In this document: positions 12,201 to 48,920 of the stretch, one piece after another
Layout: each line of letters opens with the position of its first letter
How positions within the stretch are numbered: the stretch's first letter is position 1
NCBI GenBank assembly: GCA_963662175.1
Contig: OY759223.1
Location: 12,130,249 to 12,194,248, forward strand
Direction of reading: 5' to 3'
DNA length: 64,000 nt
Source: Aradus depressus
Lineage: Eukaryota > Arthropoda > Insecta > Hemiptera > Aradidae
The notes under the pieces: generated by a model
What the model was told of the DNA's origin: nothing
Database searches by the model: none
What the model saw: only the letters and a program-made list of their open reading frames with translations
Made by a program: the position numbers and the translations under genes

Positions 12201-15200
12201 TTATGTTTGAACAATAGTATTCTTCATGTTCATCACAGAAACATCCAAAAGTAATTTACTCCGAAATACTATTCGTTGTAATAATAAAAGGTAAATATAA
12301 CAAATTAATTTTTAGTTTATATGTTAATTGAGAAATGCATACACAACATAGATACTTCTTTGATTTCAAATTATTCTGAAAAATTGTTTAAAAAAACTCT
12401 TGTTTTTACTATTATTATTTTTTTTTTATTATATTAAACTGAAGGAAACAATGATTGTAGAATATATTGTTCACAGTTTGAATAGCGTTACAAAATGTTA
12501 TAACAAAAAGGTCAGCGTAGCGGAATTTAAGTCTGAAAGATGTATTTGCTAATCCTCGTTGCGATGCGTCCTAACAAGTATTTATTATAGGAACACCAAT
12601 GATTTGATTAGGGCTGCCATCTATCGGAAGATGGTTGGTCTACATATTGAAAAAATTTTCCCTTTCTTTTTTTTTTTTTTTTTTAATGTCCGAAAATTCA
12701 AACACTATTTCCCGACATTATTTGCGCTAGAAAATAAAAATGTTAAGTTGTCATACCTACTTAAGGTCTCAGCCTCAAAGTGGCTCATTTTGACATATAA
12801 TGATGTATACAGGGTGTCTTAATAACACCTACTCTTTTTCTGAACTTGTAACTAAACGATTTACATAAAGGAAATTCCTTCATTGTTTTTTCTTTCTGCC
12901 TCTTTTTTTCAATTGCATTACAAAAAATAAATAAATAAGAAAATAATTTCAAAAACGTCTCCTAAATTGTTTGATAGCTTCTTAGAATTACGCTAAAAAA
13001 ATAAATAAAAAGATGAATTTTGCATAGTAAAAAGACAGAAATAAACTTAAAATAAAATAATACATAATCAATACGTCTTGGTACAGTACAATGTTATTTA
13101 ATACCTACCCAAATATAGACACTCCAAATCCGTTGACAGTCCACCTGACAGATCCATTTTGGATTACCAAAGGCCCGAACATGTAGTGTTGTTACAATCC
13201 CATTACGTACCAAATTGATAAATAATAATAAAACTATTTCTTATTAATAAGTAGGGTTTGTGGGTGTACCTTGAACATTCATGATTGATCTTACCTTCAA
13301 CTGTTTGAGCCCTGTTTTACTGCTGATTGCTAATCTTTCTGCTTTCTCAGTTGAACTTAGTAAGTGTAGACGTAATGTAGTGATTTCTATTTGTTTTTTT
13401 TCCTTTATTATCCCTCTTAACGCCGTTTATTCTTTCAAAAACTGATTGTATTAATATCATTTTGATTATGTGGCATTTATTTTAAGTTCATTTCTGTCTT
13501 CTCACTCTGCAAAACATTGCTTGTTTTTTTTTTTCTACATTAGGCAGTTTATAAAGATTATTGATGGTTGGATACATAATACATTTGTCAACGCCTAGAG
13601 CATTCACGTTTTCCTATCCTTGCTACAAGCAAGAAGAATCTTTAATAATATTAGGACTCTTGAGATTCATAATAGTTATTGATGATTGGATTCATATTAC
13701 ATTTGACAACGCCTAGAGCATTCACGTTTTCCTATCCTTGCTACAAGCAAGAAGTAGGTTTTTTGAGGGCGCCGGTAGCTCAGTGGTATGCGTGCTTGAC
13801 TTCTGAGCTCAAGGTCGTGGGTTCGTAGCCCGACCGAGGCCCTTAGTTTATTTTATCTGGGAGGTAAAATAAACTTAAGCACGCCGTCCTTCGGATGGGA
13901 CGTTAAGCGATGGTCCCGAGCCTGTACGATGTCAGGTACTCGTTAAAGACCCCTACCCTAGATGAATAAAAATTTAGGGCAGGCAAAATTTAGGACTCCC
14001 ACAGTAGAGTCGGGCTCATGTCCACCAGAGTGACGAAAGAGCGCTCTGGTAGTAGGCGATATGACCTCGTAGTTAAAGCCCGGGCATGAGTCATAAAACC
14101 TAACCTAACCTAGGAAGTAGGTTTAGTTACTTACATTAGGACTCTTGAGATTTATAATAATTATTGATGACTGGATTCATATTAAATTTGCCAACTACTA
14201 GAGCATTCACGTTTTCCTATCCTTGCTACAAGCAAGAAGTAGGTTTAGTTAATTACATTAGGTCTCTTGAGATTTATAATGATTATTGATGACTGGATTC
14301 ATATTACATTTGCCAACGCCTAGAGCATTCACGCTTTCCTATCATTGCTACAAGCAAGTAGAAGGATTAGTAATATTAGGTCTCTTGAGATTTATAATGA
14401 TTATTGATGAATGGATTCATATTACATTTGCCAACGCCTAGAGCATTCACGTTTTCCTATCCTTGCTACAAGCAAGAAGTAGGTTTAGTTACTTACATTA
14501 GGTCTCTTGAGATTTATAATGATTATTGATGACTGGATTCATATTACATTTGCCAACGCCTAGAGCATTCACGTTTTCCTATCCTTGCTACAAGCAAGTA
14601 GAAGAATTAGTAATATTAGGTCTCTTGAGATTTATAATGATTATTGATGATTGGATTCATATTAAATTTGCCAACGCCTAGAGCATTCACGCTTTCCTAT
14701 CATTGCTACAAGCAAGTAGAAGGATTAGTAATATTAGGTCTCTTGAGATTTATAATAATTATTGATGACTGGATTCATATTAAATTTGCCAACTACTAGA
14801 GCATTCACGTTTTCCTATCCTTGCTACAAGCAAGAAGTAGGTTTAGTTACTTACATTAGGTCTCTTGAGATTTATAATAATTATTGATGAATGGATTCAT
14901 ATTACATTTGCCAACGCCTAGAGCATTCACGTTTTCCTATACTTGCTACAAGCAAGAAGTAGGTTTAGTTACTTACATTAGGTCTCTTGAGATTTATAAT
15001 GATTATTGATGACTGGATTCATATTACATTTGCCAACGCCTAGAGCATTCACGCTTTCCTATCATTGCTACAAGCAAGTAGAAGGATTAGTAATATTAGG
15101 TCTCTTGAGATTTATAATGATTATTGATGATTGGATTCATATTACATTTGCCAACGCCTAGAGCATTCACGTTTTCCTATCCTTGCTACAAGCAAGTAGA

Positions 15201-18200
15201 AGAATTAGTAATATTAGGTCTCTTGAGATTTATAATGATTATTGATGACTGGATTCATATTAAATTTGCCAACGACTAGAGCATTCACGTTTTCCTATCC
15301 TTGCTACAAGCTGATTTATAATAATTATTGACGATTCAATTCATAATACATTTGCCAACGACTAGAGCATTCATCTTTTCCTATCCTTGCTACAAGCTGA
15401 TTTATAATAATTATTGACGATTCAATTCATAATACATTTGCCAACGACTAGAGTATTCTTGTTTTCCTTTCTTTGCTACAAGGAAGTAGAAAGTTTAACA
15501 ATATTAGGACTTTTGAATATTATAAGGATCATTGATGATTGGATTCATAATACAGTTTTCAATGAGCAGAGCATTAAAATTTTCCCTTTCTTTGCTACAA
15601 GTAGAAGGATTAACAGTATTCGGAATTATTGATGAATAATTTCAAAATACATTCGCCAATGACTAGAGTATTAATGATTTCCTATCCTTGCTACAGGTAG
15701 AAGGATATTAGGACCCATGAAACCTATAATGATTATTGATGATTGGATTCATAATAGTTTAGCCAACGACTAGAGCATTCACGTTTTCATATCATTGCTA
15801 CAAGCAAGTAGAAGGATTAGTAATATTAGGACTCTTGAGATTTTTGATGATTGTATTCTTAATACATTTGCCAATGACTAGGGCATTCATCATGCTTGAG
15901 AAAGAAAGCAATATTAGGACCCATGAAATTTATTATTATTATTGATGATTGGATTCATAATATTTTTATTTCTTTGAGATTTAGGCTTATTACTGCAGTT
16001 TGGTTGTATTTTCATATCTATTTTGGGTTCAAAGATTTGGATCGTAGTCCATCGTATCGTGTTGAATGGTTGACGGCGGCTGCTTTCTGTTCGTACCCAT
16101 GAATTGGGTTCCTGTATGGTGTGCTTCTCAGAGAGGAAATTATATTTTGGGATAACTTCTACGAATCACTTAGAATTGCATCGATTCCTAACATATGGTG
16201 TTCAATGGAAGACGAGGCATTCGGGTAGCTGCTATCTTTTCTCGTGAAGTTGGTTTCAGTATGGTAGTACTCAAAGTGACATTCTTGGATAACTCCTACA
16301 AATCACTTGGATATGCATCGATTTCTGAACTATCGTGTTGAAAGGAAGACGAGTCATTCGGTTAGCTGCTGCTCTCTGCTCTCATGAAGCTGGTTCTGTA
16401 CGGTACTACGTAAAGTGGCAATGACATTCTTGGATAACTCCTACAATCACTTGGATATGCATCGATTTCTGAACTATCGTGTTGAAAGGAAGACGAGTCA
16501 TTCGGTTAGCTGCTGCTCTCTGCTCTCATGAATCTGGTTCTGTACGGTACTACGTAAAGTGGCAATGACATTCTTGGATAACTCCTACGAATCACTTGGA
16601 TTTGCATCGATTTCTGAACTATCGTGTTGAAAGGAAGACGAGTCATTCGGTTAGCTGCTGCTCTCTGCTCTCATGAAGCTGGTTCTGTACGATACTACGT
16701 AAAGTGGCAATGACATTCTTGGATAACTCCTAAGAATCACTTGGATTTGCATCGATTTCTGAAATATCGTGTTGAAAGGAAGACGAGTCATTCGGTTAGC
16801 TGCTGCTCTCTGCTCTCATGAAACTGGTTCTGCACGGTATTACGTAAAGTGGTAATGACATTCTTGGATAACTCCTACGAATCACTTAGATTTGTATCGA
16901 TTTCTTCTCTGTTGAAAGGAAGACGAGTCATTCGGTTAGTTGCTGCTCTCTGCTCTCATGAAGCTGGTTCTGTACGGTATTACGTAAAGGGCAATGACAT
17001 TTTTGGAAAACTCCTACAAAACCCTTAAATTCGCATCGTGTTGTATCGTATCGTGTTAAATGGTTGACAAGGCATTCTGTGAGTTGCTGTTTTCTGTTGT
17101 CAAGAAGCTGGTGGTTCCCAAAGTGTCTATCATCTCAAATCCCTTAGATTTGCTTCGTATATCTAACGTATCGAGTTGAATCGTAGATGAGGCATTCGGT
17201 TAGCTGCTACTTGCTGTTCTCTTGAAGGTGCGTTCTGTACGGTGCTAAGCAATAAGACAATGACATTTATAATAACTCCTAGGAATCAATTAGAAGTGTT
17301 CCGCTGTTTCTTCCTCATTTGAAGTAAACAACACGTACTCATGTGGCTGCTTCTCCCTGCTCTGTTCTTATATGAGACAGTTCTTATCATGCCCAGATTC
17401 AACGCATCTTTGCCTTTTCTCGCCGTATTAATTCTTTTCCACGTATTCTCTGACATGGTACTCATTCATAGTACCAGTACCCATCAATGGTTATACTTTT
17501 TGCAGTATACTTTTGAAACTCACAAGAAAATTCTAATTGAACATTCAATAGTTTTTATCGACGACAGTTCGTGAGCAATTCACTATTCTTGATTTTCATT
17601 TAGGCGTAGGGCCTGCTTAATGATCAGCAAAGTTCAGTAAATACTATAGATATTGAGCGATCTTGATCGAAAGAAATAATCCACAGTGCACCCACTATAG
17701 GAAAGATATACAATGGCTCCTTCTCTTGGACTAAATTCTGAAACGATACAAAATGTTAATATATTAGACACAGTGCTTATGGTAATTTGCTCAATTATTA
17801 TCTTAACTCATACTCCGAAATGTAACACTCCAGAACTGTCAGTAACATTCGACAATGGTTCTTTTCAGCTGAACCTGTTATACAAGAAAAGCCAACACCA
17901 TGCCAACCTTCTCCTTGTGGTACAAATGCGGTGTGCAAAGAACAAAATGGAGCTGGTTCGTGCTCTTGCCTATCGGAGTATATTGGAAACCCTTATGAGA
18001 GCTGCAGACCAGAGTGCGTCCACAACAGTGATTGCCCTTCAAACAAAGCTTGCGTTCGAAATAAGTGTCAGGATCCTTGCCCTGGTACTTGTGGACAAAA
18101 CGCAGAATGTCAAGTTGTGAATCATCTTCCGTCGTGTACCTGCTTTCCTGGTTACATCGGAGATCCATTCAGATATTGCAACATCATACCTCCACAAAGT

Positions 18201-21200
18201 AAGATCTTTGGTTAGTCATTCTTTCTTGAGGTATATTTCGGTTCACTGTTATGAAAGATTCTCATGCCCGACTTTGTTCCCACAGCTGTTCAGGAAGCTC
18301 CCAAGGACCCTTGCAATCCATCACCATGCGGGCCCAACAGCCAGTGCAAAGTGAACAATGGACAAGCTATATGTTCATGTTTACCCGAATATATCGGAGC
18401 TCCGCCAGGATGTAGACCTCAATGTGTTGTGAGCACGGAGTGTCCTTCACACCAAGCTTGCGTGAACCAAAAATGTGTGGATCCTTGTCCAGGCACCTGT
18501 GGTCAGAACGCTGAATGTCAAGTGATAAATCATAGCCCTATTTGTTCCTGTCGTTCGGGATTTACTGGAGATCCATTTTCCAGATGTTATCGCATACCAC
18601 GTAAGCACAATTAAAGCCGTTATATCTATCTCAATATGGAATCAGCCTTTCCTCCATTTTAATCTTGGGTGTTTTTTCATAGCGCCTCCACCACCAATTG
18701 CCTCACCTGTGCCAGTCAATCCTTGTCTACCATCCCCTTGTGGACCTTATTCTCAATGCAGGGACAACAATGGCTCGCCATCGTGTTCATGTCTTCCCGA
18801 GTACTCAGGCTCCCCACCAAACTGCAGGCCTGAATGCTCCATAAATGCTGAGTGTGCTAGCAATTTGGCTTGCATTAGGGAAAAGTGTCGAGATCCGTGT
18901 CCTGGTTCGTGCGGGGCTGGAGCCAACTGCAACGTCATTAACCATACTCCGATTTGCACTTGCCCAGAAGGATATACAGGAGATCCATTTAACAATTGCT
19001 TCCCGAAACCTCCTCCACGTAAGAATCAATAATTCCAATCAGTTATCAGTATTCATCTAGTGTCCATTGCCTGTTACAAGATAATTATGTGGTTATTTTG
19101 CCCTTTTTCTACAGCGGCGGAACCAGTGCAAAGTGATCCTTGTAACCCATCACCATGTGGCTCTAATGCTCAGTGCCACGATGGTGTATGCACGTGTCTC
19201 CCCGAATATCAAGGGGATCCGTATACAGGTTGCAGGCCCGAGTGTGTCCTCAACAATGACTGTCCGAGAAACAAAGCTTGTATTCGAAATAAATGTGCTG
19301 ATCCGTGCCCTGGTACTTGCGGACAAAATGCACGTTGCGATGTGGTCAATCATATTCCAATGTGCTCGTGCCTGCAGGGAATGTCAGGAAACCCTTTCAT
19401 TCAATGCTCACCAGTAGCTGGTTAGTATCGGATTCTCATATTCTCTATTTTAGTCGTGGATTGCCAGGTTTCCTTATCATTGTCGTTCTTTCAGCTCCTA
19501 TCGAATCGACACCCTGTCAACCTTCTCCATGTGGACCATACAGTCAATGCCGACCAATCAACGGGCAGTCAGTCTGCTCCTGCCAGTCTGGTTACAAAGG
19601 AATGCCGCCTTCGTGCAGACCTGAGTGTGTGGTTAACTCGGATTGTGGTCGGAATGAAGCTTGCAATAATCAGAAATGTAGAAACCCATGCGTGGGTACT
19701 TGCGGTGTGGGCGCCAGATGTGAAGTCGTCAACCACAATCCAATCTGTAGTTGTCCTGCCCGATATACTGGAGATCCATTCATTAGATGCCATCCAATTC
19801 GTAAGAGCTCTCGTATTTATCTTAAATAATGATTTTCAACCCTTTCTTTTTCTGACCCTTTTTATTTTTGGTACAGCTGAAGCGGCACCAGTTGCGCAAG
19901 AACAGACGGATCCATGCATTCCTTCACCTTGTGGTCCCAACGCACAATGCAAGGTTGTCGGAACAAGTCCTTCCTGCTCCTGTTTGCCCAACTTTAACGG
20001 GATCCCACCTAATTGTCGACCAGAATGTGTCAGTAACGGAGAATGCTCTAGTCATTTGGCTTGTATAAATCAAAAATGCAAAGATCCCTGCCCTAATACG
20101 TGTGGAGCGAATGCCATTTGTCGAGTCGTCAGTCATACGCCACAGTGCTTGTGCTCTCCCGGATACACTGGAGATCCATTTGTTCAATGTTCGGTTGTTC
20201 AACGTAAGTTCTTGCTCCTCATATTTTCTCATTATGCAGGTTTAATTTGTATTTAAGAATTCTCCTAATTTGGGAATTGGCTCTTTTCAGTTGAACCAAT
20301 TGTACAAGAAAGGCCAACACCATGCCAACCTTCTCCTTGTGGTACAAATGCGGTGTGCAAAGAACAAAATGGAGCTGGTTCGTGCTCTTGCCTACCGGAG
20401 TATATTGGAAACCCTTACGAGGGCTGCAGGCCAGAGTGCGTTCTCAACAGTGATTGTCCTTCAAACAAAGCTTGCATTCGAAATAAGTGTCAGGATCCTT
20501 GCCCTGGTACTTGTGGACAAAACGCAGAATGTCAAGTTGTGAATCATCTTCCGTCGTGTACCTGCTTTCCTGGTTACACCGGAGATCCATTCAGATATTG
20601 CAACATCATACCTCCACAAAGTAAGATCTTTGGTTAGTGATTCTTTCTTGAGGTATATTTCGGTTCACTGTTATGAAAGATTCTCATGCCCGACTTTGTT
20701 CCCACAGCTGTTCAGGAAGCTCCCAAGGACCCTTGCAATCCATCACCATGCGGGCCCAACAGCCAGTGCAAAGTGAACAATGGACAAGCTATATGTTCAT
20801 GTTTACCCGAATATATCGGAGCTCCGCCAGGATGTAGACCTCAATGTGTTGTGAGCACGGAGTGTCCTTCACACCAAGCTTGCGTGAACCAAAAATGTGT
20901 GGATCCTTGTCCAGGCACCTGTGGTCAGAACGCTGAATGTCAAGTGATAAATCATAGCCCTATTTGTTCCTGTCGTTCGGGATTTACTGGAGATCCATTT
21001 TCCAGATGTTATCGCATACCACGTAAGCACAATTAAAGCCGTTATATCTATCTCAATATGGAATCAGCCTTTCCTCCATTTTAATCTTGGGTGTTTTTTC
21101 ATAGCGCCTCCACCACCAATTGCCTCACCTGTGCCAGTCAATCCTTGTCTACCATCCCCTTGTGGACCTTATTCTCAATGCAGGGAAAACAATGGCTCGC

Positions 21201-24200
21201 CATCGTGTTCATGTCTTCCCGAGTACTCAGGCTCCCCACCAAACTGCAGGCCTGAATGCTCCATAAATGCTGAGTGTGCTAGCAATTTGGCTTGCATTAG
21301 GGAAAAGTGTCGAGATCCGTGTCCTGGTTCGTGCGGGGCTGGAGCCAACTGCAACGTCATTAACCATACTCCGATTTGCACTTGCCCAGAAGGATATACA
21401 GGAGATCCATTTAACAATTGCTTCCCGAAACCTCCTCCACGTAAGAATCAATAATTCCAATCAGTTATCAGTATTCATCTAGTGTCCATTGCCTGTTACA
21501 AGATAATTATGTGGTTATTTTGTCCTTTTTCTACAGCGGCGGAACCAGTGCAAAGTGATCCTTGCAACCCATCACCATGTGGCTCTAATGCTCAGTGCCA
21601 CGATGGTGTATGCACGTGTCTCTCCGAATATCAAGGGGATCCGTATACAGGTTGCAGGCCCGAGTGTGTCCTCAACAATGACTGTCCGAGAAACAAAGCT
21701 TGTATTCGAAATAAATGTGCTGATCCGTGCCCTGGTACTTGCGGACAAAATGCACGTTGCGATGTGGTCAATCATATTCCAATGTGCTCGTGCCTGCAGG
21801 GAATGTCAGGAAACCCTTTCATTCAATGCTCACCAGTAGCTGGTTAGTATCGGATTCTCATATTCTCTATTTTAGTCGTGGATTGCCAGGTTTCCTTATC
21901 ATTGTCGTTCTTTCAGCTCCTATCGAATCGACACCCTGTCAACCTTCTCCATGTGGACCATACAGTCAATGCCGACCAATCAACGGGCAGTCAGTCTGCT
22001 CCTGCCAGTCTGGTTACAAAGGAATGCCGCCTTCGTGCAGACCTGAGTGTGTGGTTAACTCGGATTGTGGTCGGAATGAAGCTTGCAATAATCAGAAATG
22101 TAGAAACCCATGCGTGGGTACTTGCGGTGTGGGCGCCAGATGTGAAGTCGTCAACCACAATCCAATCTGTAGTTGTCCTGCCCGATATACTGGAGATCCA
22201 TTCATTAGATGCCATCCAATTCGTAAGAGCTCTCGTATTTATCTTAAATAATGATTTTCAACCCTTTCTTTTTCTGACCCTTTTTATTTTTGGTACAGCT
22301 GAAGCGGCACCAGTTGCGCAAGAACAGACGGATCCATGCATTCCTTCACCTTGTGGTCCCAACGCACAATGCAAGGTTGTCGGAACAAGTCCTTCCTGCT
22401 CCTGTTTGCCCAACTTTAACGGGATCCCACCTAATTGTCGACCAGAATGTGTCAGTAACGGAGAATGCTCTAGTCATTTGGCTTGTATAAATCAAAAATG
22501 CAAAGATCCCTGCCCTAATACGTGTGGAGCGAATGCCATTTGTCGAGTCGTCAGTCATACGCCACAGTGCTTGTGCTCTCCCGGATACACTGGAGATCCA
22601 TTTGTTCAATGTTCGGTTGTTCAACGTAAGTTCTTGCTCCTCATATTTTCTCATTATGCAGGTTTAATTTGTATTTAAGAATTCTCCTAATTTGGGAATT
22701 GGCTCTTTTCAGTTGAACCAATTGTACAAGAAAGGCCAACACCATGCCAACCTTCTCCTTGTGGTGCAAATGCGGTTTGCAGAGAACAAAATGGAGCTGG
22801 TTCGTGCTCTTGCCTACCGGAGTATATTGGAAACCCTTACGAGGGCTGCAGGCCAGAGTGCGTTCTCAACAGTGATTGTCCTTCAAACAAAGCTTGCATT
22901 CGAAATAAGTGTCAGGATCCTTGCCCTGGTACTTGTGGACAAAACGCAGAATGTCAAGTTGTGAATCATCTTCCGTCGTGTACCTGCTTTCCTGGTTACA
23001 CCGGAGATCCATTCAGATATTGCAACATCATACCTCCACAAAGTAAGATCTTTGGTTAGTCATTCTTTCTTGAGGTATATTTCGGTTCACTGTTATGAAA
23101 GATTCTCATGCCCGACTTTGTTCCCACAGCTGTTCAGGAAGCTCCCAAGGACCCTTGCAATCCATCACCATGCGGGCCCAACAGCCAGTGCAAAGTGAAC
23201 AATGGACAAGCTATATGTTCATGTTTACCCGAATATATCGGAGCTCCGCCAGGATGTAGACCTCAATGTGTTGTGAGCACGGAGTGTCCTTCACACCAAG
23301 CTTGCGTGAACCAAAAATGTGTGGATCCTTGTCCAGGCACCTGTGGTCAGAACGCTGAATGTCAAGTGATAAATCATAGCCCTATTTGTTCCTGTCGTTC
23401 GGGATTTACTGGAGATCCATTTTCCAGATGTTATCGCATACCACGTAAGCACAATTAAAGCCGTTATATCTATCTCAATATGGAAACAGCCTTTCCTCCA
23501 TTTTAATCTTGGGTGTTTTTTCGTAGCGCCTCCACCACCAGTTGCCTCACCTGTGCCAGTCAATCCTTGTCTACCATCCCCTTGTGGACCTTATTCTCAA
23601 TGCAGGGACAACAATGGCTCGCCATCGTGTTCATGTCTTCCCGAGTACTCAGGCTCCCCACCAAACTGCAGGCCTGAATGCTCCATAAATGCTGAGTGTG
23701 CTAGCAATTTGGCTTGCATTAGGGAAAAGTGTCGAGATCCGTGTCCTGGTTCGTGCGGGGCTGGAGCCAACTGCAACGTCATTAACCATACTCCGATTTG
23801 CACTTGCCCAGAAGGATATACAGGAGATCCATTTAACAATTGCTTCCCGAAACCTCCTCCACGTAAGAATCAATAATTCCAATCAGTTATCAGTATTCAT
23901 CTAGTGTCCATTGCCTGTTACAAGATAATTATGTGGTTATTTTGTCCTTTTTCTACAGCGGCGGAACCAGTGCAAAGTGATCCTTGCAACCCATCACCAT
24001 GTGGCTCTAATGCTCAGTGCCACGATGGTGTATGCACGTGTCTCTCCGAATATCAAGGGGATCCGTATACAGGTTGCAGGCCCGAGTGTGTCCTCAACAA
24101 TGACTGTCCGAGAAACAAAGCTTGTATTCGAAATAAATGTGCTGATCCGTGCCCTGGTACTTGCGGACAAAATGCACGTTGCGATGTGGTCAATCATATT

Positions 24201-27200
24201 CCAATGTGCTCGTGCCTGCAGGGAATGTCAGGAAACCCTTTCATTCAATGCTCACCAGTAGCTGGTTAGTATCGGATTCTCATATTCTCTATTTTAGTCG
24301 TGGATTGCCAGGTTTCCTTATCATTGTCGTTCTTTCAGCTCCTATCGAATCGACACCCTGTCAACCTTCTCCATGTGGACCATACAGTCAATGCCGACCA
24401 ATCAACGGGCAGTCAGTCTGCTCCTGCCAGTCTGGTTACAAAGGAATGCCGCCTTCGTGCAGACCTGAGTGTGTGGTTAACTCGGATTGTGGTCGGAATG
24501 AAGCTTGCAATAATCAGAAATGTAGAAACCCATGCGTGGGTACTTGCGGTGTGGGCGCCAAATGTGAAGTCGTCAACCACAATCCAATCTGTAGTTGTCC
24601 TGCCCGATATACTGGAGATCCATTCATTAGATGCCATCCAATTCGTAAGAGCTCTCGTATTTATCTTAAATAATGATTTTCAACCCTTTCTTTTTCTGAC
24701 CCTTTTTATTTTTGGTACAGCTGAAGCGGCACCAGTTGCGCAAGAACAGACGGATCCATGCATTCCTTCACCTTGTGGTCCCAACGCACAATGCAAGGTT
24801 GTCGGAACAAGTCCTTCCTGCTCCTGTTTGCCCAACTTTAACGGGATCCCACCTAATTGTCGACCAGAATGTGTCAGTAACGGAGAATGCTCTAGTCATT
24901 TGGCTTGTATAAATCAAAAATGCAAAGATCCCTGCCCTAATACGTGTGGAGCGAATGCCATTTGTCGAGTCGTCAGTCATACGCCACAGTGCTTGTGCTC
25001 TCCCGGATACACTGGAGATCCATTTGTTCAATGTTCGGTTGTTCAACGTAAGTTCTTGCTCCTCATATTTTCTCATTATGCAGGTTTAATTTGTATTTAA
25101 GAATTCTCCTAATTTGGGAATTGGCTCTTTTCAGTTGAACCAATTGTACAAGAAAGGCCAACACCATGCCAACCTTCTCCTTGTGGTACAAATGCGGTTT
25201 GCAGAGAACAAAATGGAGCTGGTTCGTGCTCTTGCCTACCGGAGTATATTGGAAACCCTTACGAGGGCTGCAGGCCAGAGTGCGTTCTCAACAGTGATTG
25301 TCCTTCAAACAAAGCTTGCATTCGAAATAAGTGTCAGGATCCTTGCCCTGGTACTTGTGGACAAAACGCAGAATGTCAAGTTGTGAATCATCTTCCGTCG
25401 TGTACCTGCTTTCCTGGTTACACCGGAGATCCATTCAGATATTGCAACATCATACCTCCACAAAGTAAGATCTTTGGTTAGTCATTCTTTCTTGAGGTAT
25501 ATTTCGGTTCACTGTTATGAAAGATTCTCATGCCCGACTTTGTTCCCACAGCTGTTCAGGAAGCTCCCAAAGACCCTTGCAATCCATCACCATGCGGGCC
25601 CAACAGCCAGTGCAAAGTGAACAATGGACAAGCTATATGTTCATGTTTACCCGAATATATCGGAGCTCCGCCAGGATGTAGACCTCAATGTGTTGTGAGC
25701 ACGGAGTGTCCTTCACACCAAGCTTGCGTGAACCAAAAATGTGTGGATCCTTGTCCAGGCACCTGTGGTCAGAACGCTGAATGTCAAGTGATAAATCATA
25801 GCCCTATTTGTTCCTGTCGTTCGGGATTTACTGGAGATCCATTTTCCAGATGTTATCGCATACCACGTAAGCACAATTAAAGCCGTTATATCTATCTCAA
25901 TATGGAATCAGCCTTTCCTCCATTTTAATCTTGGGTGTTTTTTCGTAGCGCCTCCACCACCAGTTGCCTCACCTGTGCCAGTCAATCCTTGTCTACCATC
26001 CCCTTGTGGACCTTATTCTCAATGCAGGGACAACAATGGCTCGCCATCGTGTTCATGTCTTCCCGAGTACTCAGGCTCCCCACCAAACTGCAGGCCTGAA
26101 TGCTCCATAAATGCTGAGTGTGCTAGCAATTTGGCTTGCATTAGGGAAAAGTGTCGAGATCCGTGTCCTGGTTCGTGCGGGGCTGGAGCCAACTGCAACG
26201 TCATTAACCATACTCCGATTTGCACTTGCCCAGAAGGATATACAGGAGATCCATTTAACAATTGCTTCCCGAAACCTCCTCCACGTAAGAATCAATAATT
26301 CCAATCAGTTATCAGTATTCATCTAGTGTCCATTGCCTGTTACAAGATAATTATGTGGTTATTTTGTCCTTTTTCTACAGCGGCGGAACCAGTGCAAAGT
26401 GATCCTTGCAACCCATCACCATGTGGCTCTAATGCTCAGTGCCACGATGGTGTATGCACGTGTCTCTCCGAATATCAAGGGGATCCGTATACAGGTTGCA
26501 GGCCCGAGTGTGTCCTCAACAATGACTGTCCGAGAAACAAAGCTTGTATTCGAAATAAATGTGCTGATCCGTGCCCTGGTACTTGCGGACAAAATGCACG
26601 TTGCGATGTGGTCAATCATATTCCAATGTGCTCGTGCCTGCAGGGAATGTCAGGAAACCCTTTCATTCAATGCTCACCAGTAGCTGGTTAGTATCGGATT
26701 CTCATATTCTCTATTTTAGTCGTGGATTGCCAGGTTTCCTTATCATTGTCGTTCTTTCAGCTCCTATCGAATCGACACCCTGTCAACCTTCTCCATGTGG
26801 ACCATACAGTCAATGCCGACCAATCAACGGGCAGTCAGTCTGCTCCTGCCAGTCTGGTTACAAAGGAATGCCGCCTTCGTGCAGACCTGAGTGTGTGGTT
26901 AACTCGGATTGTGGTCGGAATGAAGCTTGCAATAATCAGAAATGTAGAAACCCATGCGTGGGTACTTGCGGTGTGGGCGCCAGATGTGAAGTCGTCAACC
27001 ACAATCCAATCTGTAGTTGTCCTGCCCGATATACTGGAGATCCATTCATTAGATGCCATCCAATTCGTAAGAGCTCTCGTATTTATCTTAAATAATGATT
27101 TTCAACCCTTTCTTTTTCTGACCCTTTTTATTTTTGGTACAGCTGAAGCGGCACCAGTTGCGCAAGAACAGACGGATCCATGCATTCCTTCACCTTGTGG

Positions 27201-30200
27201 TCCCAACGCACAATGCAAGGTTGTCGGAACAAGTCCTTCCTGCTCCTGTTTGCCCAACTTTAACGGGATCCCACCTAATTGTCGACCAGAATGTGTCAGT
27301 AACGGAGAATGCTCTAGTCATTTGGCTTGTATAAATCAAAAATGCAAAGATCCCTGCCCTAATACGTGTGGAGCGAATGCCATTTGTCGAGTCGTCAGTC
27401 ATACGCCACAGTGCTTGTGCTCTCCCGGATACACTGGAGATCCATTTGTTCAATGTTCGGTTGTTCAACGTAAGTTCTTGCTCCTCATATTTTCTCATTA
27501 TGCAGGTTTAATTTGTATTTAAGAATTCTCCTAATTTGGGAATTGGCTCTTTTCAGTTGAACCAATTGTACAAGAAAGGCCAACACCATGCCAACCTTCT
27601 CCTTGTGGTGCAAATGCGGTTTGCAGAGAACAAAATGGAGCTGGTTCGTGCTCTTGCCTACCGGAGTATATTGGAAACCCTTACGAGGGCTGCAGGCCAG
27701 AGTGCGTTCTCAACAGTGATTGTCCTTCAAACAAAGCTTGCATTCGAAATAAGTGTCAGGATCCTTGCCCTGGTACTTGTGGACAAAACGCAGAATGTCA
27801 AGTTGTGAATCATCTTCCGTCGTGTACCTGCTTTCCTGGTTACACCGGAGATCCATTCAGATATTGCAACATCATACCTCCACAAAGTAAGATCTTTGGT
27901 TAGTCATTCTTTCTTGAGGTATATTTCGGTTCACTGTTATGAAAGATTCTCATGCCCGACTTTGTTCCCACAGCTGTTCAGGAAGCTCCCAAGGACCCTT
28001 GCAATCCATCACCATGCGGGCCCAACAGCCAGTGCAAAGTGAACAATGGACAAGCTATATGTTCATGTTTACCCGAATATATCGGAGCTCCGCCAGGATG
28101 TAGACCTCAATGTGTTGTGAGCACGGAGTGTCCTTCACACCAAGCTTGCGTGAACCAAAAATGTGTGGATCCTTGTCCAGGCACCTGTGGTCAGAACGCT
28201 GAATGTCAAGTGATAAATCATAGCCCTATTTGTTCCTGTCGTTCGGGATTTACTGGAGATCCATTTTCCAGATGTTATCGCATACCACGTAAGCACAATT
28301 AAAGCCGTTATATCTATCTCAATATGGAATCAGCCTTTCCTCCATTTTAATCTTGGGTGTTTTTTCGTAGCGCCTCCACCACCAGTTGCCTCACCTGTGC
28401 CAGTCAATCCTTGTCTACCATCCCCTTGTGGACCTTATTCTCAATGCAGGGACAACAATGGCTCGCCATCGTGTTCATGTCTTCCCGAGTACTCAGGCTC
28501 CCCACCAAACTGCAGGCCTGAATGCTCCATAAATGCTGAGTGTGCTAGCAATTTGGCTTGCATTAGGGAAAAGTGTCGAGATCCGTGTCCTGGTTCGTGC
28601 GGGGCTGGAGCCAACTGCAACGTCATTAACCATACTCCGATTTGCACTTGCCCAGAAGGATATACAGGAGATCCATTTAACAATTGCTTCCCGAAACCTC
28701 CTCCACGTAAGAATCAATAATTCCAATCAGTTATCAGTATTCATCTAGTGTCCATTGCCTGTTACAAGATAATTATGTGGTTATTTTGTCCTTTTTCTAC
28801 AGCGGCGGAACCAGTGCAAAGTGATCCTTGCAACCCATCACCATGTGGCTCTAATGCTCAGTGCCACGATGGTGTATGCACGTGTCTCTCCGAATATCAA
28901 GGGGATCCGTATACAGGTTGCAGGCCCGAGTGTGTCCTCAACAATGACTGTCCGAGAAACAAAGCTTGTATTCGAAATAAATGTGCTGATCCGTGCCCTG
29001 GTACTTGCGGACAAAATGCACGTTGCGATGTGGTCAATCATATTCCAATGTGCTCGTGCCTGCAGGGAATGTCAGGAAACCCTTTCATTCAATGCTCACC
29101 AGTAGCTGGTTAGTATCGGATTCTCATATTCTCTATTTTAGTCGTGGATTGCCAGGTTTCCTTATCATTGTCGTTCTTTCAGCTCCTATCGAATCGACAC
29201 CCTGTCAACCTTCTCCATGTGGACCATACAGTCAATGCCGACCAATCAACGGGCAGTCAGTCTGCTCCTGCCAGTCTGGTTACAAAGGAATGCCGCCTTC
29301 GTGCAGACCTGAGTGTGTGGTTAACTCGGATTGTGGTCGGAATGAAGCTTGCAATAATCAGAAATGTAGAAACCCATGCGTGGGTACTTGCGGTGTGGGC
29401 GCCAGATGTGAAGTCGTCAACCACAATCCAATCTGTAGTTGTCCTGCCCGATATACTGGAGATCCATTCATTAGATGCCATCCAATTCGTAAGAGCTCTC
29501 GTATTTATCTTAAATAATGATTTTCAACCCTTTCTTTTTCTGACCCTTTTTATTTTTGGTACAGCTGAAGCGGCACCAGTTGCGCAAGAACAGACGGATC
29601 CATGCATTCCTTCACCTTGTGGTCCCAACGCACAATGCAAGGTTGTCGGAACAAGTCCTTCCTGCTCCTGTTTGCCCAACTTTAACGGGATCCCACCTAA
29701 TTGTCGACCAGAATGTGTCAGTAACGGAGAATGCTCTAGTCATTTGGCTTGTATAAATCAAAAATGCAAAGATCCCTGCCCTAATACGTGTGGAGCGAAT
29801 GCCATTTGTCGAGTCGTCAGTCATACGCCACAGTGCTTGTGCTCTCCCGGATACACTGGAGATCCATTTGTTCAATGTTCGGTTGTTCAACGTAAGTTCT
29901 TGCTCCTCATATTTTCTCATTATGCAGGTTTAATTTGTATTTAAGAATTCTCCTAATTTGGGAATTGGCTCTTTTCAGTTGAACCAATTGTACAAGAAAG
30001 GCCAACACCATGCCAACCTTCTCCTTGTGGTGCAAATGCGGTTTGCAGAGAACAAAATGGAGCTGGTTCGTGCTCTTGCCTACCGGAGTATATTGGAAAC
30101 CCTTACGAGGGCTGCAGGCCAGAGTGCGTTCTCAACAGTGATTGTCCTTCAAACAAAGCTTGCATTCGAAATAAGTGTCAGGATCCTTGCCCTGGTACTT

Positions 30201-33200
30201 GTGGACAAAACGCAGAATGTCAAGTTGTGAATCATCTTCCGTCGTGTACCTGCTTTCCTGGTTACACCGGAGATCCATTCAGATATTGCAACATCATACC
30301 TCCACAAAGTAAGATCTTTGGTTAGTCATTCTTTCTTGAGGTATATTTCGGTTCACTGTTATGAAAGATTCTCATGCCCGACTTTGTTCCCACAGCTGTT
30401 CAGGAAGCTCCCAAAGACCCTTGCAATCCATCACCATGCGGGCCCAACAGCCAGTGCAAAGTGAACAATGGACAAGCTATATGTTCATGTTTACCCGAAT
30501 ATATCGGAGCTCCGCCAGGATGTAGACCTCAATGTGTTGTGAGCACGGAGTGTCCTTCACACCAAGCTTGCGTGAACCAAAAATGTGTGGATCCTTGTCC
30601 AGGCACCTGTGGTCAGAACGCTGAATGTCAAGTGATAAATCATAGCCCTATTTGTTCCTGTCGTTCGGGATTTACTGGAGATCCATTTTCCAGATGTTAT
30701 CGCATACCACGTAAGCACAATTAAAGCCGTTATATCTATCTCAATATGGAATCAGCCTTTCCTCCATTTTAATCTTGGGTGTTTTTTCGTAGCGCCTCCA
30801 CCACCAGTTGCCTCACCTGTGCCAGTCAATCCTTGTCTACCATCCCCTTGTGGACCTTATTCTCAATGCAGGGACAACAATGGCTCGCCATCGTGTTCAT
30901 GTCTTCCCGAGTACTCAGGCTCCCCACCAAACTGCAGGCCTGAATGCTCCATAAATGCTGAGTGTGCTAGCAATTTGGCTTGCATTAGGGAAAAGTGTCG
31001 AGATCCGTGTCCTGGTTCGTGCGGGGCTGGAGCCAACTGCAACGTCATTAACCATACTCCGATTTGCACTTGCCCAGAAGGATATACAGGAGATCCATTT
31101 AACAATTGCTTCCCGAAACCTCCTCCACGTAAGAATCAATAATTCCAATCAGTTATCAGTATTCATCTAGTGTCCATTGCCTGTTACAAGATAATTATGT
31201 GGTTATTTTGTCCTTTTTCTACAGCGGCGGAACCAGTGCAAAGTGATCCTTGCAACCCATCACCATGTGGCTCTAATGCTCAGTGCCACGATGGTGTATG
31301 CACGTGTCTCTCCGAATATCAAGGGGATCCGTATACAGGTTGCAGGCCCGAGTGTGTCCTCAACAATGACTGTCCGAGAAACAAAGCTTGTATTCGAAAT
31401 AAATGTGCTGATCCGTGCCCTGGTACTTGCGGACAAAATGCACGTTGCGATGTGGTCAATCATATTCCAATGTGCTCGTGCCTGCAGGGAATGTCAGGAA
31501 ACCCTTTCATTCAATGCTCACCAGTAGCTGGTTAGTATCGGATTCTCATATTCTCTATTTTAGTCGTGGATTGCCAGGTTTCCTTATCATTGTCGTTCTT
31601 TCAGCTCCTATCGAATCGACACCCTGTCAACCTTCTCCATGTGGACCATACAGTCAATGCCGACCAATCAACGGGCAGTCAGTCTGCTCCTGCCAGTCTG
31701 GTTACAAAGGAATGCCGCCTTCGTGCAGACCTGAGTGTGTGGTTAACTCGGATTGTGGTCGGAATGAAGCTTGCAATAATCAGAAATGTAGAAACCCATG
31801 CGTGGGTACTTGCGGTGTGGGCGCCAAATGTGAAGTCGTCAACCACAATCCAATCTGTAGTTGTCCTGCCCGATATACTGGAGATCCATTCATTAGATGC
31901 CATCCAATTCGTAAGAGCTCTCGTATTTATCTTAAATAATGATTTTCAACCCTTTCTTTTTCTGACCCTTTTTATTTTTGGTACAGCTGAAGCGGCACCA
32001 GTTGCGCAAGAACAGACGGATCCATGCATTCCTTCACCTTGTGGTCCCAACGCACAATGCAAGGTTGTCGGAACAAGTCCTTCCTGCTCCTGTTTGCCCA
32101 ACTTTAACGGGATCCCACCTAATTGTCGACCAGAATGTGTCAGTAACGGAGAATGCTCTAGTCATTTGGCTTGTATAAATCAAAAATGCAAAGATCCCTG
32201 CCCTAATACGTGTGGAGCGAATGCCATTTGTCGAGTCGTCAGTCATACGCCACAGTGCTTGTGCTCTCCCGGATACACTGGAGATCCATTTGTTCAATGT
32301 TCGGTTGTTCAACGTAAGTTCTTGCTCCTCATATTTTCTCATTATGCAGGTTTAATTTGTATTTAAGAATTCTCCTAATTTGGGAATTGGCTCTTTTCAG
32401 TTGAACCAATTGTACAAGAAAGGCCAACACCATGCCAACCTTCTCCTTGTGGTGCAAATGCGGTTTGCAGAGAACAAAATGGAGCTGGTTCGTGCTCTTG
32501 CCTACCGGAGTATATTGGAAACCCTTACGAGGGCTGCAGGCCAGAGTGCGTTCTCAACAGTGATTGTCCTTCAAACAAAGCTTGCATTCGAAATAAGTGT
32601 CAGGATCCTTGCCCTGGTACTTGTGGACAAAACGCAGAATGTCAAGTTGTGAATCATCTTCCGTCGTGTACCTGCTTTCCTGGTTACACCGGAGATCCAT
32701 TCAGATATTGCAACATCATACCTCCACAAAGTAAGATCTTTGGTTAGTCATTCTTTCTTGAGGTATATTTCGGTTCACTGTTATGAAAGATTCTCATGCC
32801 CGACTTTGTTCCCACAGCTGTTCAGGAAGCTCCCAAGGACCCTTGCAATCCATCACCATGCGGGCCCAACAGCCAGTGCAAAGTGAACAATGGACAAGCT
32901 ATATGTTCATGTTTACCCGAATATATCGGAGCTCCGCCAGGATGTAGACCTCAATGTGTTGTGAGCACGGAGTGTCCTTCACACCAAGCTTGCGTGAACC
33001 AAAAATGTGTGGATCCTTGTCCAGGCACCTGTGGTCAGAACGCTGAATGTCAAGTGATAAATCATAGCCCTATTTGTTCCTGTCGTTCGGGATTTACTGG
33101 AGATCCATTTTCCAGATGTTATCGCATACCACGTAAGCACAATTAAAGCCGTTATATCTATCTCAATATGGAATCAGCCTTTCCTCCATTTTAATCTTGG

Positions 33201-36200
33201 GTGTTTTTTCGTAGCGCCTCCACCACCAGTTGCCTCACCTGTGCCAGTCAATCCTTGTCTACCATCCCCTTGTGGACCTTATTCTCAATGCAGGGACAAC
33301 AATGGCTCGCCATCGTGTTCATGTCTTCCCGAGTACTCAGGCTCCCCACCAAACTGCAGGCCTGAATGCTCCATAAATGCTGAGTGTGCTAGCAATTTGG
33401 CTTGCATTAGGGAAAAGTGTCGAGATCCGTGTCCTGGTTCGTGCGGGGCTGGAGCCAACTGCAACGTCATTAACCATACTCCGATTTGCACTTGCCCAGA
33501 AGGATATACAGGAGATCCATTTAACAATTGCTTCCCGAAACCTCCTCCACGTAAGAATCAATAATTCCAATCAGTTATCAGTATTCATCTAGTGTCCATT
33601 GCCTGTTACAAGATAATTATGTGGTTATTTTGTCCTTTTTCTACAGCGGCGGAACCAGTGCAAAGTGATCCTTGCAACCCATCACCATGTGGCTCTAATG
33701 CTCAGTGCCACGATGGTGTATGCACGTGTCTCTCCGAATATCAAGGGGATCCGTATACAGGTTGCAGGCCCGAGTGTGTCCTCAACAATGACTGTCCGAG
33801 AAACAAAGCTTGTATTCGAAATAAATGTGCTGATCCGTGCCCTGGTACTTGCGGACAAAATGCACGTTGCGATGTGGTCAATCATATTCCAATGTGCTCG
33901 TGCCTGCAGGGAATGTCAGGAAACCCTTTCATTCAATGCTCACCAGTAGCTGGTTAGTATCGGATTCTCATATTCTCTATTTTAGTCGTGGATTGCCAGG
34001 TTTCCTTATCATTGTCGTTCTTTCAGCTCCTATCGAATCGACACCCTGTCAACCTTCTCCATGTGGACCATACAGTCAATGCCGACCAATCAACGGGCAG
34101 TCAGTCTGCTCCTGCCAGTCTGGTTACAAAGGAATGCCGCCTTCGTGCAGACCTGAGTGTGTGGTTAACTCGGATTGTGGTCGGAATGAAGCTTGCAATA
34201 ATCAGAAATGTAGAAACCCATGCGTGGGTACTTGCGGTGTGGGCGCCAGATGTGAAGTCGTCAACCACAATCCAATCTGTAGTTGTCCTGCCCGATATAC
34301 TGGAGATCCATTCATTAGATGCCATCCAATTCGTAAGAGCTCTCGTATTTATCTTAAATAATGATTTTCAACCCTTTCTTTTTCTGACCCTTTTTATTTT
34401 TGGTACAGCTGAAGCGGCACCAGTTGCGCAAGAACAGACGGATCCATGCATTCCTTCACCTTGTGGTCCCAACGCACAATGCAAGGTTGTCGGAACAAGT
34501 CCTTCCTGCTCCTGTTTGCCCAACTTTAACGGGATCCCACCTAATTGTCGACCAGAATGTGTCAGTAACGGAGAATGCTCTAGTCATTTGGCTTGTATAA
34601 ATCAAAAATGCAAAGATCCCTGCCCTAATACGTGTGGAGCGAATGCCATTTGTCGAGTCGTCAGTCATACGCCACAGTGCTTGTGCTCTCCCGGATACAC
34701 TGGAGATCCATTTGTTCAATGTTCGGTTGTTCAACGTAAGTTCTTGCTCCTCATATTTTCTCATTATGCAGGTTTAATTTGTATTTAAGAATTCTCCTAA
34801 TTTGGGAATTGGCTCTTTTCAGTTGAACCAATTGTACAAGAAAGGCCAACACCATGCCAACCTTCTCCTTGTGGTGCAAATGCGGTTTGCAGAGAACAAA
34901 ATGGAGCTGGTTCGTGCTCTTGCCTACCGGAGTATATTGGAAACCCTTACGAGGGCTGCAGGCCAGAGTGTGTTCTCAACAGTGATTGTCCTTCAAACAA
35001 AGCTTGCATTCGAAATAAGTGTCAGGATCCTTGCCCTGGTACTTGTGGACAAAACGCAGAATGTCAAGTTGTGAATCATCTTCCGTCGTGTACCTGCTTT
35101 CCTGGTTACACCGGAGATCCATTCAGATATTGCAACATCATACCTCCACAAAGTAAGATCTTTGGTTAGTCATTCTTTCTTGAGGTATATTTCGGTTCAC
35201 TGTTATGAAAGATTCTCATGCCCGACTTTGTTCCCACAGCTGTTCAGGAAGCTCCCAAGGACCCTTGCAATCCATCACCATGCGGGCCCAACAGCCAGTG
35301 CAAGGTGAACAATGGACAAGCTATATGTTCATGTTTACCCGAATATATCGGAGCTCCGCCAGGATGTAGACCTCAATGTGTTGTGAGCACGGAGTGTCCT
35401 TCACACCAAGCTTGCGTGAACCAAAAATGTGTGGATCCTTGTCCAGGCACCTGTGGTCAGAACGCTGAATGTCAAGTGATAAATCATAGCCCTATTTGTT
35501 CCTGTCGTTCGGGATTTACTGGAGATCCATTTTCCAGATGTTATCGCATACCACGTAAGCACAATTAAAGCCGTTATATCTATCTCAATATGGAATCAGC
35601 CTTTCCTCCATTTTAATCTTGGGTGTTTTTTCGTAGCGCCTCCACCATCAGTTGCCTCACCTGTGCCAGTCAATCCTTGTCTACCATCCCCTTGTGGACC
35701 TTATTCTCAATGCAGGGACAACAATGGCTCGCCATCGTGTTCATGTCTTCCCGAGTACTCAGGCTCCCCACCAAACTGCAGGCCTGAATGCTCCATAAAT
35801 GCTGAGTGTGCTAGCAATTTGGCTTGCATTAGGGAAAAGTGCCGAGATCCGTGTCCTGGTTCGTGCGGGGCTGGAGCCAACTGCAACGTCATTAACCATA
35901 CTCCGATTTGCACTTGCCCAGAAGGATATACAGGAGATCCATTTAACAATTGCTTCCCGAAACCTCCTCCACGTAAGAATCAATAATTCCAATCAGTTAT
36001 CAGTATTCATCTAGTGTCCATTGCCTGTTACAAGATAATTATGTGGTTATTTTGTCCTTTTTCTACAGCGGCGGAACCAGTGCAAAGTGATCCTTGCAAC
36101 CCATCACCATGTGGCTCTAATGCTCAGTGCCACGATGGTGTATGCACGTGTCTCTCCGAATATCAAGGGGACCCGTATACAGGTTGCAGGCCCGAGTGTG

Positions 36201-39200
36201 TCCTCAACAATGACTGTCCGAGAAACAAAGCTTGTATTCGAAATAAATGTGCTGATCCGTGCCCTGGTACTTGCGGACAAAATGCACGTTGCGATGTGGT
36301 CAATCATATTCCAATGTGCTCGTGCCTGCAGGGAATGTCAGGAAACCCTTTCATTCAATGCTCACCAGTAGCTGGTTAGTATCGGATTCTCATATTCTCT
36401 ATTTTAGTCGTGGATTGCCAGGTTTCCTTATCATTGTCGTTCTTTCAGCTCCTATCGAATCGACACCCTGTCAACCTTCTCCATGTGGACCATACAGTCA
36501 ATGCCGACCAATCAACGGGCAGTCAGTCTGCTCCTGCCAGGCTGGTTACAAAGGAATGCCGCCTTCGTGCAGACCTGAGTGTGTGGTTAACTCGGATTGT
36601 GGTCGGAATGAAGCTTGCAATAATCAGAAATGTAGAAACCCATGCGTGGGTACTTGCGGTGTGGGCGCCAGATGTGAAGTCGTCAACCACAATCCAATCT
36701 GTAGTTGTCCTGCCCGATATACTGGAGATCCATTCATTAGATGCCATCCAATTCGTAAGAGCTCTCGTATTTATCTTAAATAATGATTTTCAACCCTTTC
36801 TTTTTCTGACCCTTTTTATTTTTGGTACAGCTGAAGCGGCACCAGTTGCGCAAGAACAGACGGATCCATGCATTCCTTCACCTTGTGGTCCCAACGCACA
36901 ATGCAAGGTTGTCGGAACAAGTCCTTCCTGCTCCTGTTTGCCCAACTTTAACGGGATCCCACCTAATTGTCGACCAGAATGTGTCAGTAACGGAGAATGC
37001 TCTAGTCATTTGGCTTGTATAAATCAAAAATGCAAAGATCCCTGCCCTAATACGTGTGGAGCGAATGCCATTTGTCGAGTCGTCAGTCATACACCACAGT
37101 GCTTGTGCTCTCCCGGATACACTGGAGATCCATTTGTAAACTGTTTAGTTCTGGAATGTAAGTTTGATTGTACATTTTTCTTGTTGATAGGTTTTATGAG
37201 TACACTTACAGGAAATAATTTATGGTTTTTCCGGTTTTAATTTAAAGCACGCGAGTTTTTCGTTTGATTATTAACATAAATTAGGTCTCAAATCTGTTAG
37301 GAATCATGCATTATTTTGTGCAATTTATGACGTATGGCAACAATAACTGTAATTTCATACGTGTACACGTTGAGTTATAATTTGTTCTTCTATGTTCTTT
37401 GAGTGTGCATTTTCTCAAGTACTACTATAGTCGTGAAACGAAAAAATGTGGTAGTGTATGAATTACCTCATACCTATATACTGTCTCTAGGACGATAGGA
37501 TATATACTGTAGGAAAAAATGTTTGTGTATGTATTTTTTTATGTAGTTTCTATAGGAATTAAGGTTTCCCTTAAGATTCAAATTCTAAGGATGTAAAATT
37601 GTTGTGTATGCATTTTCTCAAGTATTACCTACTTATTATATGCCTTCAGAGTTGAATTTGATGCCTAAATATGTGACACAGTGTAATACTCATTATGGTT
37701 TTAATATAGTTTATGTTATCATATTTTTAATTCTAGGATTTATTGTGTTTTAATACTATAGTTCGTTTCAACTAAATTTACCCACAAATGAGTCCCAACT
37801 CCCAACCGTCCCGTGGTATCAAGTCCTGGCCAAAATGCCATGACTTTCGGAGCTATTGCCTTGAGTCAAGGAGAAGCAAAAAGGCTGGTTCATGGGCAGT
37901 GTGGAAAATTAGTTGATACGAGCTATAGGTAGATACCTTCAATAATAAAAATAACAGAAATAGAATAATTCTGCCGCATTGTCAGAAATATAGAATATAT
38001 TCTAGTTCTACAATTGAATATTAAAAATTGTTATTGCAGCTGAACCAATTGTACAAGAAAGGCCTACACCGTGCCAACCTTCTCCTTGTGGTGCAAATGC
38101 GGTTTGCAAAGAACAAAATGGAGCTGGTTCGTGCTCTTGCCTACCGGAGTATATTGGAAACCCTTACGAGGGCTGCAGGCCAGAGTGCGTTCTCAACAGT
38201 GATTGTCCTTCAAACAAAGCTTGCATTCGAAATAAGTGTCAGGATCCTTGCCCTGGTACTTGTGGACAAAACGCAGAATGTCAAGTTGTGAATCATCTTC
38301 CGTCGTGTACCTGCTTTCCTGGTTACACCGGAGATCCATTCAGATATTGCAACATCATACCTCCACAAAGTAAGATCTTTGGTTAGTGATTCTTTCTTGA
38401 GGTATATTTCGGTTCACTGTTATGAAAGATTCTCATGCCCGACTTTGTTCCCACAGCTGTTCAGGAAGCTCCCAAGGACCCTTGCAATCCATCACCATGC
38501 GGGCCCAACAGCCAGTGCAAAGTGAACAATGGACAAGCTATATGTTCATGTTTACCTCAGTATATCGGAGCTCCGCCAGGATGCAGGCCTGAATGTGTTG
38601 TCAGTTCTGAATGTCCTTCGAACCAAGCCTGTGTCAACCAGAAATGCTCCGATCCATGTCCTGGCACTTGTGGTCAAGACTCTCATTGCCAGGTCATAAA
38701 CCATAGCCCTATTTGCTCATGTCGACAGGGTTTCACAGGGGATCCATTTTCACATTGTCGTCCTATTCCACGTACGTTTTTACTTATTCATTTCTCTTTC
38801 CAATTAACATTCTACAATATGGTATTTATTGTGTGTTTTTTTGTAATTTATTATTTTAGCTCCTCCTGCACCACCGGCATCGCCTGTCTATATTAACCCC
38901 TGTGTTCCTTCGCCGTGTGGACCTTACTCCCAGTGTAGGGACCATGGAGGTTCGCCATCCTGTTCTTGTCTGTCGGACTATACAGGATCACCGCCTAACT
39001 GTCGTCCAGAGTGCACTATCAATGCAGAGTGTTCTAGTAACCTGGCCTGTATCAGGGAGAAGTGCAGAGACCCATGCCCTGGCTCCTGTGGTCTGGGTGC
39101 TCTTTGCAGTGTTATCAATCATACTCCTGTCTGCACTTGTCCTGAGGGATACACTGGAGATCCGTTTACCAACTGTGTACCCAAACCTCCACCACGTAAG

Positions 39201-48200: not shown

Positions 48201-48885
48201 ACCCCAAACCTCCTCCACGTAAGATACTTCATTAGCTTTTTTATTATAAAAAAATGCCAAAAAAAAAAAACCTTCAAAGGCTTTTTTGAGTTAGTGTGCC
48301 AAGAGAAACTGAATGTTCCCTGTAGAAACAATGTGTTAAATTCAAAAAAGGTTGTCCGAATACATTTTTGCGCTCTGGGTCAATATAGTGGAAAAACTAA
48401 TTAAGAACAAAGAATTTGTTTAACATTTATATTGTCCAATTCTACATATATAAATATAAAGTTGATGTTCCGAATTTTGCCATCGTCAGCACAAAGTTCA
48501 CTGTTGCACATCAATAGCAGTGTTCACGGTATATTATATTAATAAACTAGCTAAACCCGCCATGCGTTGCAAATGCTATTTTTGTAATAGAAAAAAAAAA
48601 AAAAATTAAAATTCAAAGTTGTCAAACCACTTTAAACCGTTCCAGTGATGTGTCAAACATAACCTATAGGTTTGAGCGCAATAGCTTCGACATTTTTGCA
48701 TCATATAAGCCTCACACAGACGGACTTTCATTTATGTATATACCTATATATATATATATAGGATTTGTAAATAAAAAACTATGTTCTAAACCTTCTCGGT
48801 GACTCGACAAACATAATTGCTGAACATTAGAACAAAATCGGATGGAAGTTTAGGAGTCTATGAAACACAAACATACAGACATAAG

Positions 48886-48920
<35 letters not shown>

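Follow-up and report, generated by a model that had tools for sequence, protein, structure and literature searches.

The window analysed here, a stretch of 64,000 nucleotides from the hemipteran Aradus depressus (Aradidae; assembly GCA_963662175.1, contig OY759223.1, positions 12,130,249 to 12,194,248 of the forward strand), covers part of the dumpy gene, which runs on the plus strand and for which 74 exons with one EGF-DPY-EGF triad each have been modelled. Within this gene, positions 17869-37157 of the window are occupied by a coding array of eight units, which follow each other head-to-tail, in register and without insertions or deletions at an exact period of 2,422 bp. Self-comparison of the array gives an identity of 99.68% at a lag of 2,422 bp and of 99.63%, 99.59% and 99.47% at two, three and four times this lag, while the best other lag among 100-11,999 reaches 34%. 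Self-comparison and column comparison delimit the units, all on the plus strand, as 17869-20290 (unit 1), 20291-22712 (unit 2), 22713-25134 (unit 3), 25135-27556 (unit 4), 27557-29978 (unit 5), 29979-32400 (unit 6), 32401-34822 (unit 7) and 34823-37157 (unit 8). A first-pass annotation of the DNA had proposed eight near-identical six-exon units of 2,422 bp with exons and introns repeating jointly; count and period are right, and the identity runs through all introns.

Each unit comprises six exons, here termed A to F, of 330, 315, 336, 306, 306 and 327 nt, which add up to 1,920 nt or 640 codons, and six introns of 87, 82, 96, 74, 76 and 87 bp with GT..AG ends as read in unit 1, where the exons are located at 17869-18198 (A), 18286-18600 (B), 18683-19018 (C), 19115-19420 (D), 19495-19800 (E) and 19877-20203 (F). 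Usable AG and GT sites have been found for every modelled exon. Spliced according to the predicted model, the 48 array exons encode 5,119 amino acids with zero stops, and together with 23 downstream exons a frame of 7,563 amino acids remains open. As the model search imposed phase 1 at both exon ends, the divisibility by three of all 74 exon lengths is built in and constitutes no independent result; given phase-1 exons and a unit of 1,920 nt, the frame would be preserved whenever an entire unit or exon is gained or lost.

The deduced array protein contains 48 PSPCG heads, 48 DPY cores and 768 cysteines, the latter equalling 8 x (12 EGF x 6 + 6 DPY x 4), in agreement with the 96 EGF and 48 DPY modules previously counted. 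In one unit, Pfam displays six Dumpy_DPY stretches (E=2e-63) and ten EGF_3 stretches, so that the number of 12 EGF modules per unit derives from the cysteine count. The solved DPY module 1oig equally matches the array unit (E=7e-6). Repeated EGF-DPY-EGF triads with a DPY module recognized by Pfam and 1oig identify the gene as Dumpy, as had been assumed, and the predicted step size of 640 residues follows from the 1,920 nt per unit. The calculated mass is 67 kDa for one unit of 640 residues and 0.54 MDa for all eight.

Variation among the units is restricted to 43 of the 2,422 columns; over the last 87 columns, where unit 8 no longer follows the repeat, the comparison covers units 1-7. Units 3-7 are 0-4 bases apart in 2,335 bp, introns included (ten pairs; mean 2.0, 0.09%), with units 5 and 7 identical, in line with the earlier view of recent repeats that, spliced, form an array without stop. 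From these five units, unit 2 is 7-9 bases, unit 8 is 16-18 bases and unit 1 is 22-24 bases distant. The high similarity invites the explanation that the array is an assembly artefact, with fewer true units and the extra ones contributed by the assembler or by two mixed haplotypes; units 5 and 7 being identical and units 3-7 at most four bases apart conforms with such a scenario, and haplotypes could look alike too. On the other hand, units 1-7 hold six distinct sequences and unit 8 is at least 16 bases away from every other unit. Furthermore, the left edge occurs in unit 1 only and the right edge in unit 8 only, so two whole haplotypes have not simply been joined, and we consider an artefact improbable.

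Downstream of the array, the gene continues on the plus strand with four further blocks: d1 (38040-43782; exons A-F), diverged from the array from inside exon B onward, d2 (45549-51875; exons A-F) with inner introns of 383-1,424 bp, d3 (52500-58021; exons A-F) with inner introns of 101-1,426 bp, and d4 (59093-63157; exons A-E), for which no sixth exon has been modelled before the window end. Array introns measure 74-96 bp, those of d1-d3 including the block-to-block introns 87-1,766 bp. In an exon tree that took in 24 of the 48 array exons and 26 others, the types A, D and F, and E minus its fourth-block copy, unite the copies from the array with those downstream at starred support, while types B and C group them less firmly. 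Synonymous sites are saturated between unit 5 and d2-d4, with a nonsynonymous divergence (dN) of 0.11-0.17, and equally between unit 5 and exons C-F of d1 (dN 0.13). Between d2 and d3, the synonymous divergence (dS) is 1.10 and dN/dS 0.07, which, being near saturation, needs to be read with caution; across the comparisons d2-d3 and d3-d4, dN/dS amounts to 0.06-0.07, again with silent sites near saturation.

A super repeat of six EGF-DPY-EGF triads with 639 amino acids, reported to be present thirteen times, is known from Drosophila Dumpy (Wilkin et al. 2000, cited through PMC10895422). The Aradus unit consists of the same six triads in 640 codons, and its six exon types recur in order downstream and, by best match, in proteins of Periplaneta and Aedes. 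Judged by its sequence, the six-exon unit is this old published super-repeat and not a module newly made at this locus; with older blocks of the same type adjoining the array, a new six-exon module has been rejected. The near-identity of units 3-7 beside downstream blocks saturated against the array indicates that an old block has recently been re-amplified or homogenised. We consider it highly probable that the array represents the ancient Dumpy super-repeat, composed of six EGF-DPY-EGF triads with one triad per exon, after recent re-amplification or homogenisation. Since one or more of the eight units has to be ancestral, the surplus cannot exceed seven units (4,480 amino acids), which is less than the approximately 5,100 added residues initially proposed.

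It could be argued that the array is not used, being spliced out or untranscribed, and the divergence inside the array is indeed too low to measure selection. Yet, 48 exons that splice without a stop, with usable splice sites for each, and older blocks of the same type, in which silent sites have changed far more than amino-acid sites (d2-d3 and d3-d4), render an unused array very improbable.

The differences among the units are crowded at the edges of the array. Private to unit 1 are 17 of the 43 variable columns, 14 of them in exon A (p=3e-10 for independent sites), the diverged left edge, where unit 1 differs from unit 5 with a dS of 0.09; these differences lie dispersed as far as 18157, which makes the left edge a diffuse one. 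Private to unit 8 are 16 of the 43 columns, 9 of them within the terminal 20 bp of exon F (36831-37157; p=3e-15 on the same assumption), where at 37138 array sequence switches to a diverged F tail. Block d1 in turn begins with an array-like tract (38040-38556) consisting of exon A (38040-38369), an 87-bp intron and the first 100 bp of exon B, and departing from unit 5 at five of 517 positions; from 38557 on, still inside exon B, mismatches abruptly become dense. Among the five deviating states in the tract, one is common to unit 1, one to units 1 and 2, and one to unit 2 alone. Two sharp in-register switches, at 37138 and 38557, are thus located inside exons. Furthermore, all four combinations of variants at columns 437 and 1849 are present among units 3-7, unit 6 joining a variant otherwise restricted to unit 4 with a variant otherwise restricted to unit 3.

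Edge-crowded differences, two in-exon switches and mosaic columns together suggest several rounds of exchange or conversion, which replaces the previously envisaged single recent process. Paralogous exons in register may have undergone unequal exchange and gene conversion, with units being added and evened out, and the product would be a Dumpy fibre lengthened in steps of 640 residues (67 kDa), with a unit number that plausibly varies among individuals. Two simpler routes have been discarded. Had one ancestral unit duplicated just once, neither the divergence of exon A in unit 1 and of the F tail in unit 8 nor the array-like start of d1 would be expected. Transposon-driven duplication does not fit with the two switches inside exons, and the dispersed element of the window, the one element family searched, is unmatched in the array.

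A further alternative is an old array with a fixed unit number that was kept alike by gene conversion alone and experienced no recent gain. In its favour, the mosaic columns have the look of conversion, as does the array-like stretch of d1 that spans exon A and reaches into exon B, and concerted evolution has been published for a different dumpy region (excerpt of PMC2930355). The exact period and the identity through every intron speak against it, while the introns of d1-d3 (87-1,766 bp) differ in length from those of the array and from each other; moreover, a cause would be needed for conversion to halt at the array borders. Conversion as the sole process is regarded as unlikely, and recent re-amplification or homogenisation in several rounds remains the preferred scenario.

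Related proteins were drawn from the best 120 of 945 matches of one protein search and 78 matches of a second, 198 in total; 13 proteins retrieved by a further longer-protein search were all already among the 78. Among the 198 matches listed, 13 proteins carry near-identical internal repeats, the criterion being that one or more windows of 100 residues match the protein itself with 95% identity when shifted by 150-2,599 residues. The super-repeat period is seen as the main lag in Aedes aegypti (P0123; 635), Periplaneta americana (P0122; 636) and Anopheles coluzzii (P0143; 636), while the lag in Timema (P0124) is mainly 317 with little at 640. Reportedly, Carmon et al. 2007 described an expanded region in mosquitoes and Tribolium adjacent to PIGSFEAST, a repeat region of Drosophila dumpy; this expanded region may be the super-repeat. 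Crustaceans account for six of the 13 proteins, with lags near 500 in Homarus, Penaeus and Cherax, 689 in Lepeophtheirus, 672 in Daphnia and 270 in Amphibalanus; the last three, Planococcus, Lamprigera and Blattella, have other lags. In the DPY/EGF proteins of Homarus (P0156), Penaeus (P0149) and Cherax (P0148), nearly identical blocks are 497-500 and not 640 residues apart.

Typing of 25 proteins against the exon types of the window yielded clean A-F runs in Periplaneta and Aedes and partial runs in Mischocyttarus, Ladona, Callosobruchus (P0125) and Psylliodes. Triads of the same type, six apart and of equal length, were at least 95% identical in 12 of 25 pairs in Aedes, 13 of 33 in Periplaneta and one of two in Anopheles coluzzii. 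A block tree was built from 37 blocks of eight sources, 11 of these blocks from the window; of 11 proteins tried, four gave no block under the filter. All 11 blocks of the window group in a single clade (100/100). Blocks 1-4 of Aedes likewise make up a clade of their own (99/91), separate from Aedes block 5, which pairs with Anopheles (100/100). Mischocyttarus blocks are located on one side of a branch (95/92), yet far apart; two changes each are needed for Periplaneta, Aedes and Callosobruchus, and three for Ladona, the blocks of which do not cluster. Copies within a genome being more alike than copies between species, the hallmark of concerted evolution, has been found for the window blocks in this tree. 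At the protein level, re-amplification or homogenisation has likely taken place lineage-wise in some lineages and is not general.

Among the 198 matches listed, Halyomorpha provides the best match for 12 of the 32 exons tested (78-86%), the remaining tested exons matching best a cockroach, termite, odonate, mosquito or other protein. The gene model of Nezara P0140 contains the upstream triads followed by one A-like triad and no A-F run. When prokaryote genome contigs were scanned for stray insect DNA, 27 stretches fitted a pattern, none of which encodes a relative.

Several observations weigh against recent re-amplification or homogenisation of the super-repeat, or at least against its generality. 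The copy number originates from one assembly in which two units, 5 and 7, are identical. The edge statistics assume independent sites, whereas a single converted tract brings in many at once; the left edge shows no sharp switch, and the mosaic consists of two columns only, a pattern that repeated mutation could equally produce. Within the window, the internal 87-bp intron between exons F and A, present in seven copies, has no match outside the array, so a one-step model leaves some junctions unexplained. Outside the array, F-A introns are 882 bp before d1 and 624, 1,071 and 1,766 bp elsewhere; an odd insertion as the origin of the 882-bp intron has consequently been rejected, and with all of these introns long, it is the internal 87-bp intron that is unusual. 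That all exon lengths are multiples of three follows from the imposed phase. Most of the 25 typed proteins, for example those of Ostrinia, Manduca, Bemisia and Nezara, lack a clean A-F order, and none of ten triad pairs in each of Ladona, Callosobruchus and Psylliodes reaches 95% identity, so the pattern is not general. Finally, the triad organisation is described as stable among insects (excerpt of PMC10895422).

Upstream of the array, a 13.5-kb intron separates three further triad exons on the plus strand (1046-1360, 2291-2593 and 4020-4343; span 1046-4343), named D-E-F by order and motif only. Among the matches listed, they match best Nezara viridula P0140 (75%, 91% and 84%). In the exon tree, the second (u0E), which has a long branch, falls among the B types and the position of the third (u0F) is unsure. 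The guanine-cytosine content at third positions is 0.54 in these three exons, 0.37 in unit 5 and 0.31-0.40 in the downstream blocks, the first upstream exon having been counted as 1046-1375, 15 bp too many, in this calculation and in the exon tree.

The 13.5-kb intron also contains minisatellite arrays at 8277-9421, 14135-15805 and 16150-17112 with units of 64, approximately 118 and approximately 145 bp and further periods, the last array ending approximately 750 bp before the coding array. A dispersed repeat of approximately 350 bp has 11 matches in the window, none of them in the array: 13762-14111 (plus strand), 9827-10171 and 299-573 (both minus strand), 44243-44530, 49270-49466, 42208-42422, 42113-42163, 60181-60320, 3082-3256, and 63630-63762 and 56358-56491 (both minus strand). 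Two copies in opposite orientation, 94% identical, bracket approximately 3.6 kb of the upstream intron (9827-14111). The repeat is probably a short interspersed nuclear element: its head resembles tRNA promoter boxes, and the three best copies end in CCTAA repeats akin to the insect telomere unit. ARAGORN found no tRNA.

Comparable systems put the array into perspective. While the Drosophila super repeat has practically the same dimensions, the Aradus array possesses eight consecutive copies that are near-identical in DNA including introns (compare PMC10895422). PIGSFEAST consists of 102-amino-acid repeats in one large exon, in contrast to the six-exon block of 640 codons with introns found here (PMC2930355). 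The triplicate region of nebulin is likewise a multi-exon block, of eight exons, inside one giant structural gene; it has three copies and resides in a human skeletal-muscle gene, and copy-number variation has been reported for nebulin (PMC9109913). The LPA KIV-2 variable number tandem repeat is also a multi-exon coding tandem repeat with several kb per unit, yet its unit spans 5.6 kb with two exons, alleles are reported to have 1 to approximately 40 of them, and there is an effect on lipoprotein(a) (PMC11462820). As in KIV-2, the Aradus unit is in frame under the phase-1 splice model, with 1,920 coding nucleotides and no stop. Among the open-licence papers listed, none describes a super-repeat array of this kind by title or abstract. 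The module and the gene are known, and the scale and purity of the recent in-frame amplification or homogenisation are striking.

Near-identical coding arrays are likely collapsed in short-read assemblies; in Aradus, the array brings out at the DNA level, with unusual clarity, a type of protein-length change that is already known. Drosophila Dumpy is a load-bearing giant of 2.5 MDa with predicted filaments of at least 1 um (excerpt of PMC4574473). The eight array units (0.54 MDa) correspond to about one fifth of this protein, and by simple proportion one unit might change the length of the fibre by approximately 27 nm or more. It may tentatively be proposed, as a possibility of rather less than even standing, that the super-repeat is a length-changing device that has been re-amplified repeatedly in some insect lineages, that symmetric phase-1 exons allow harmless gains and losses of whole blocks of 640 amino acids, and that the unit number varies within this species today, adjusting the length of the fibre between epidermis and cuticle. 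An array so young would allow asking whether the length of a structural protein varies within a species and affects the mechanics of cuticle or wing.

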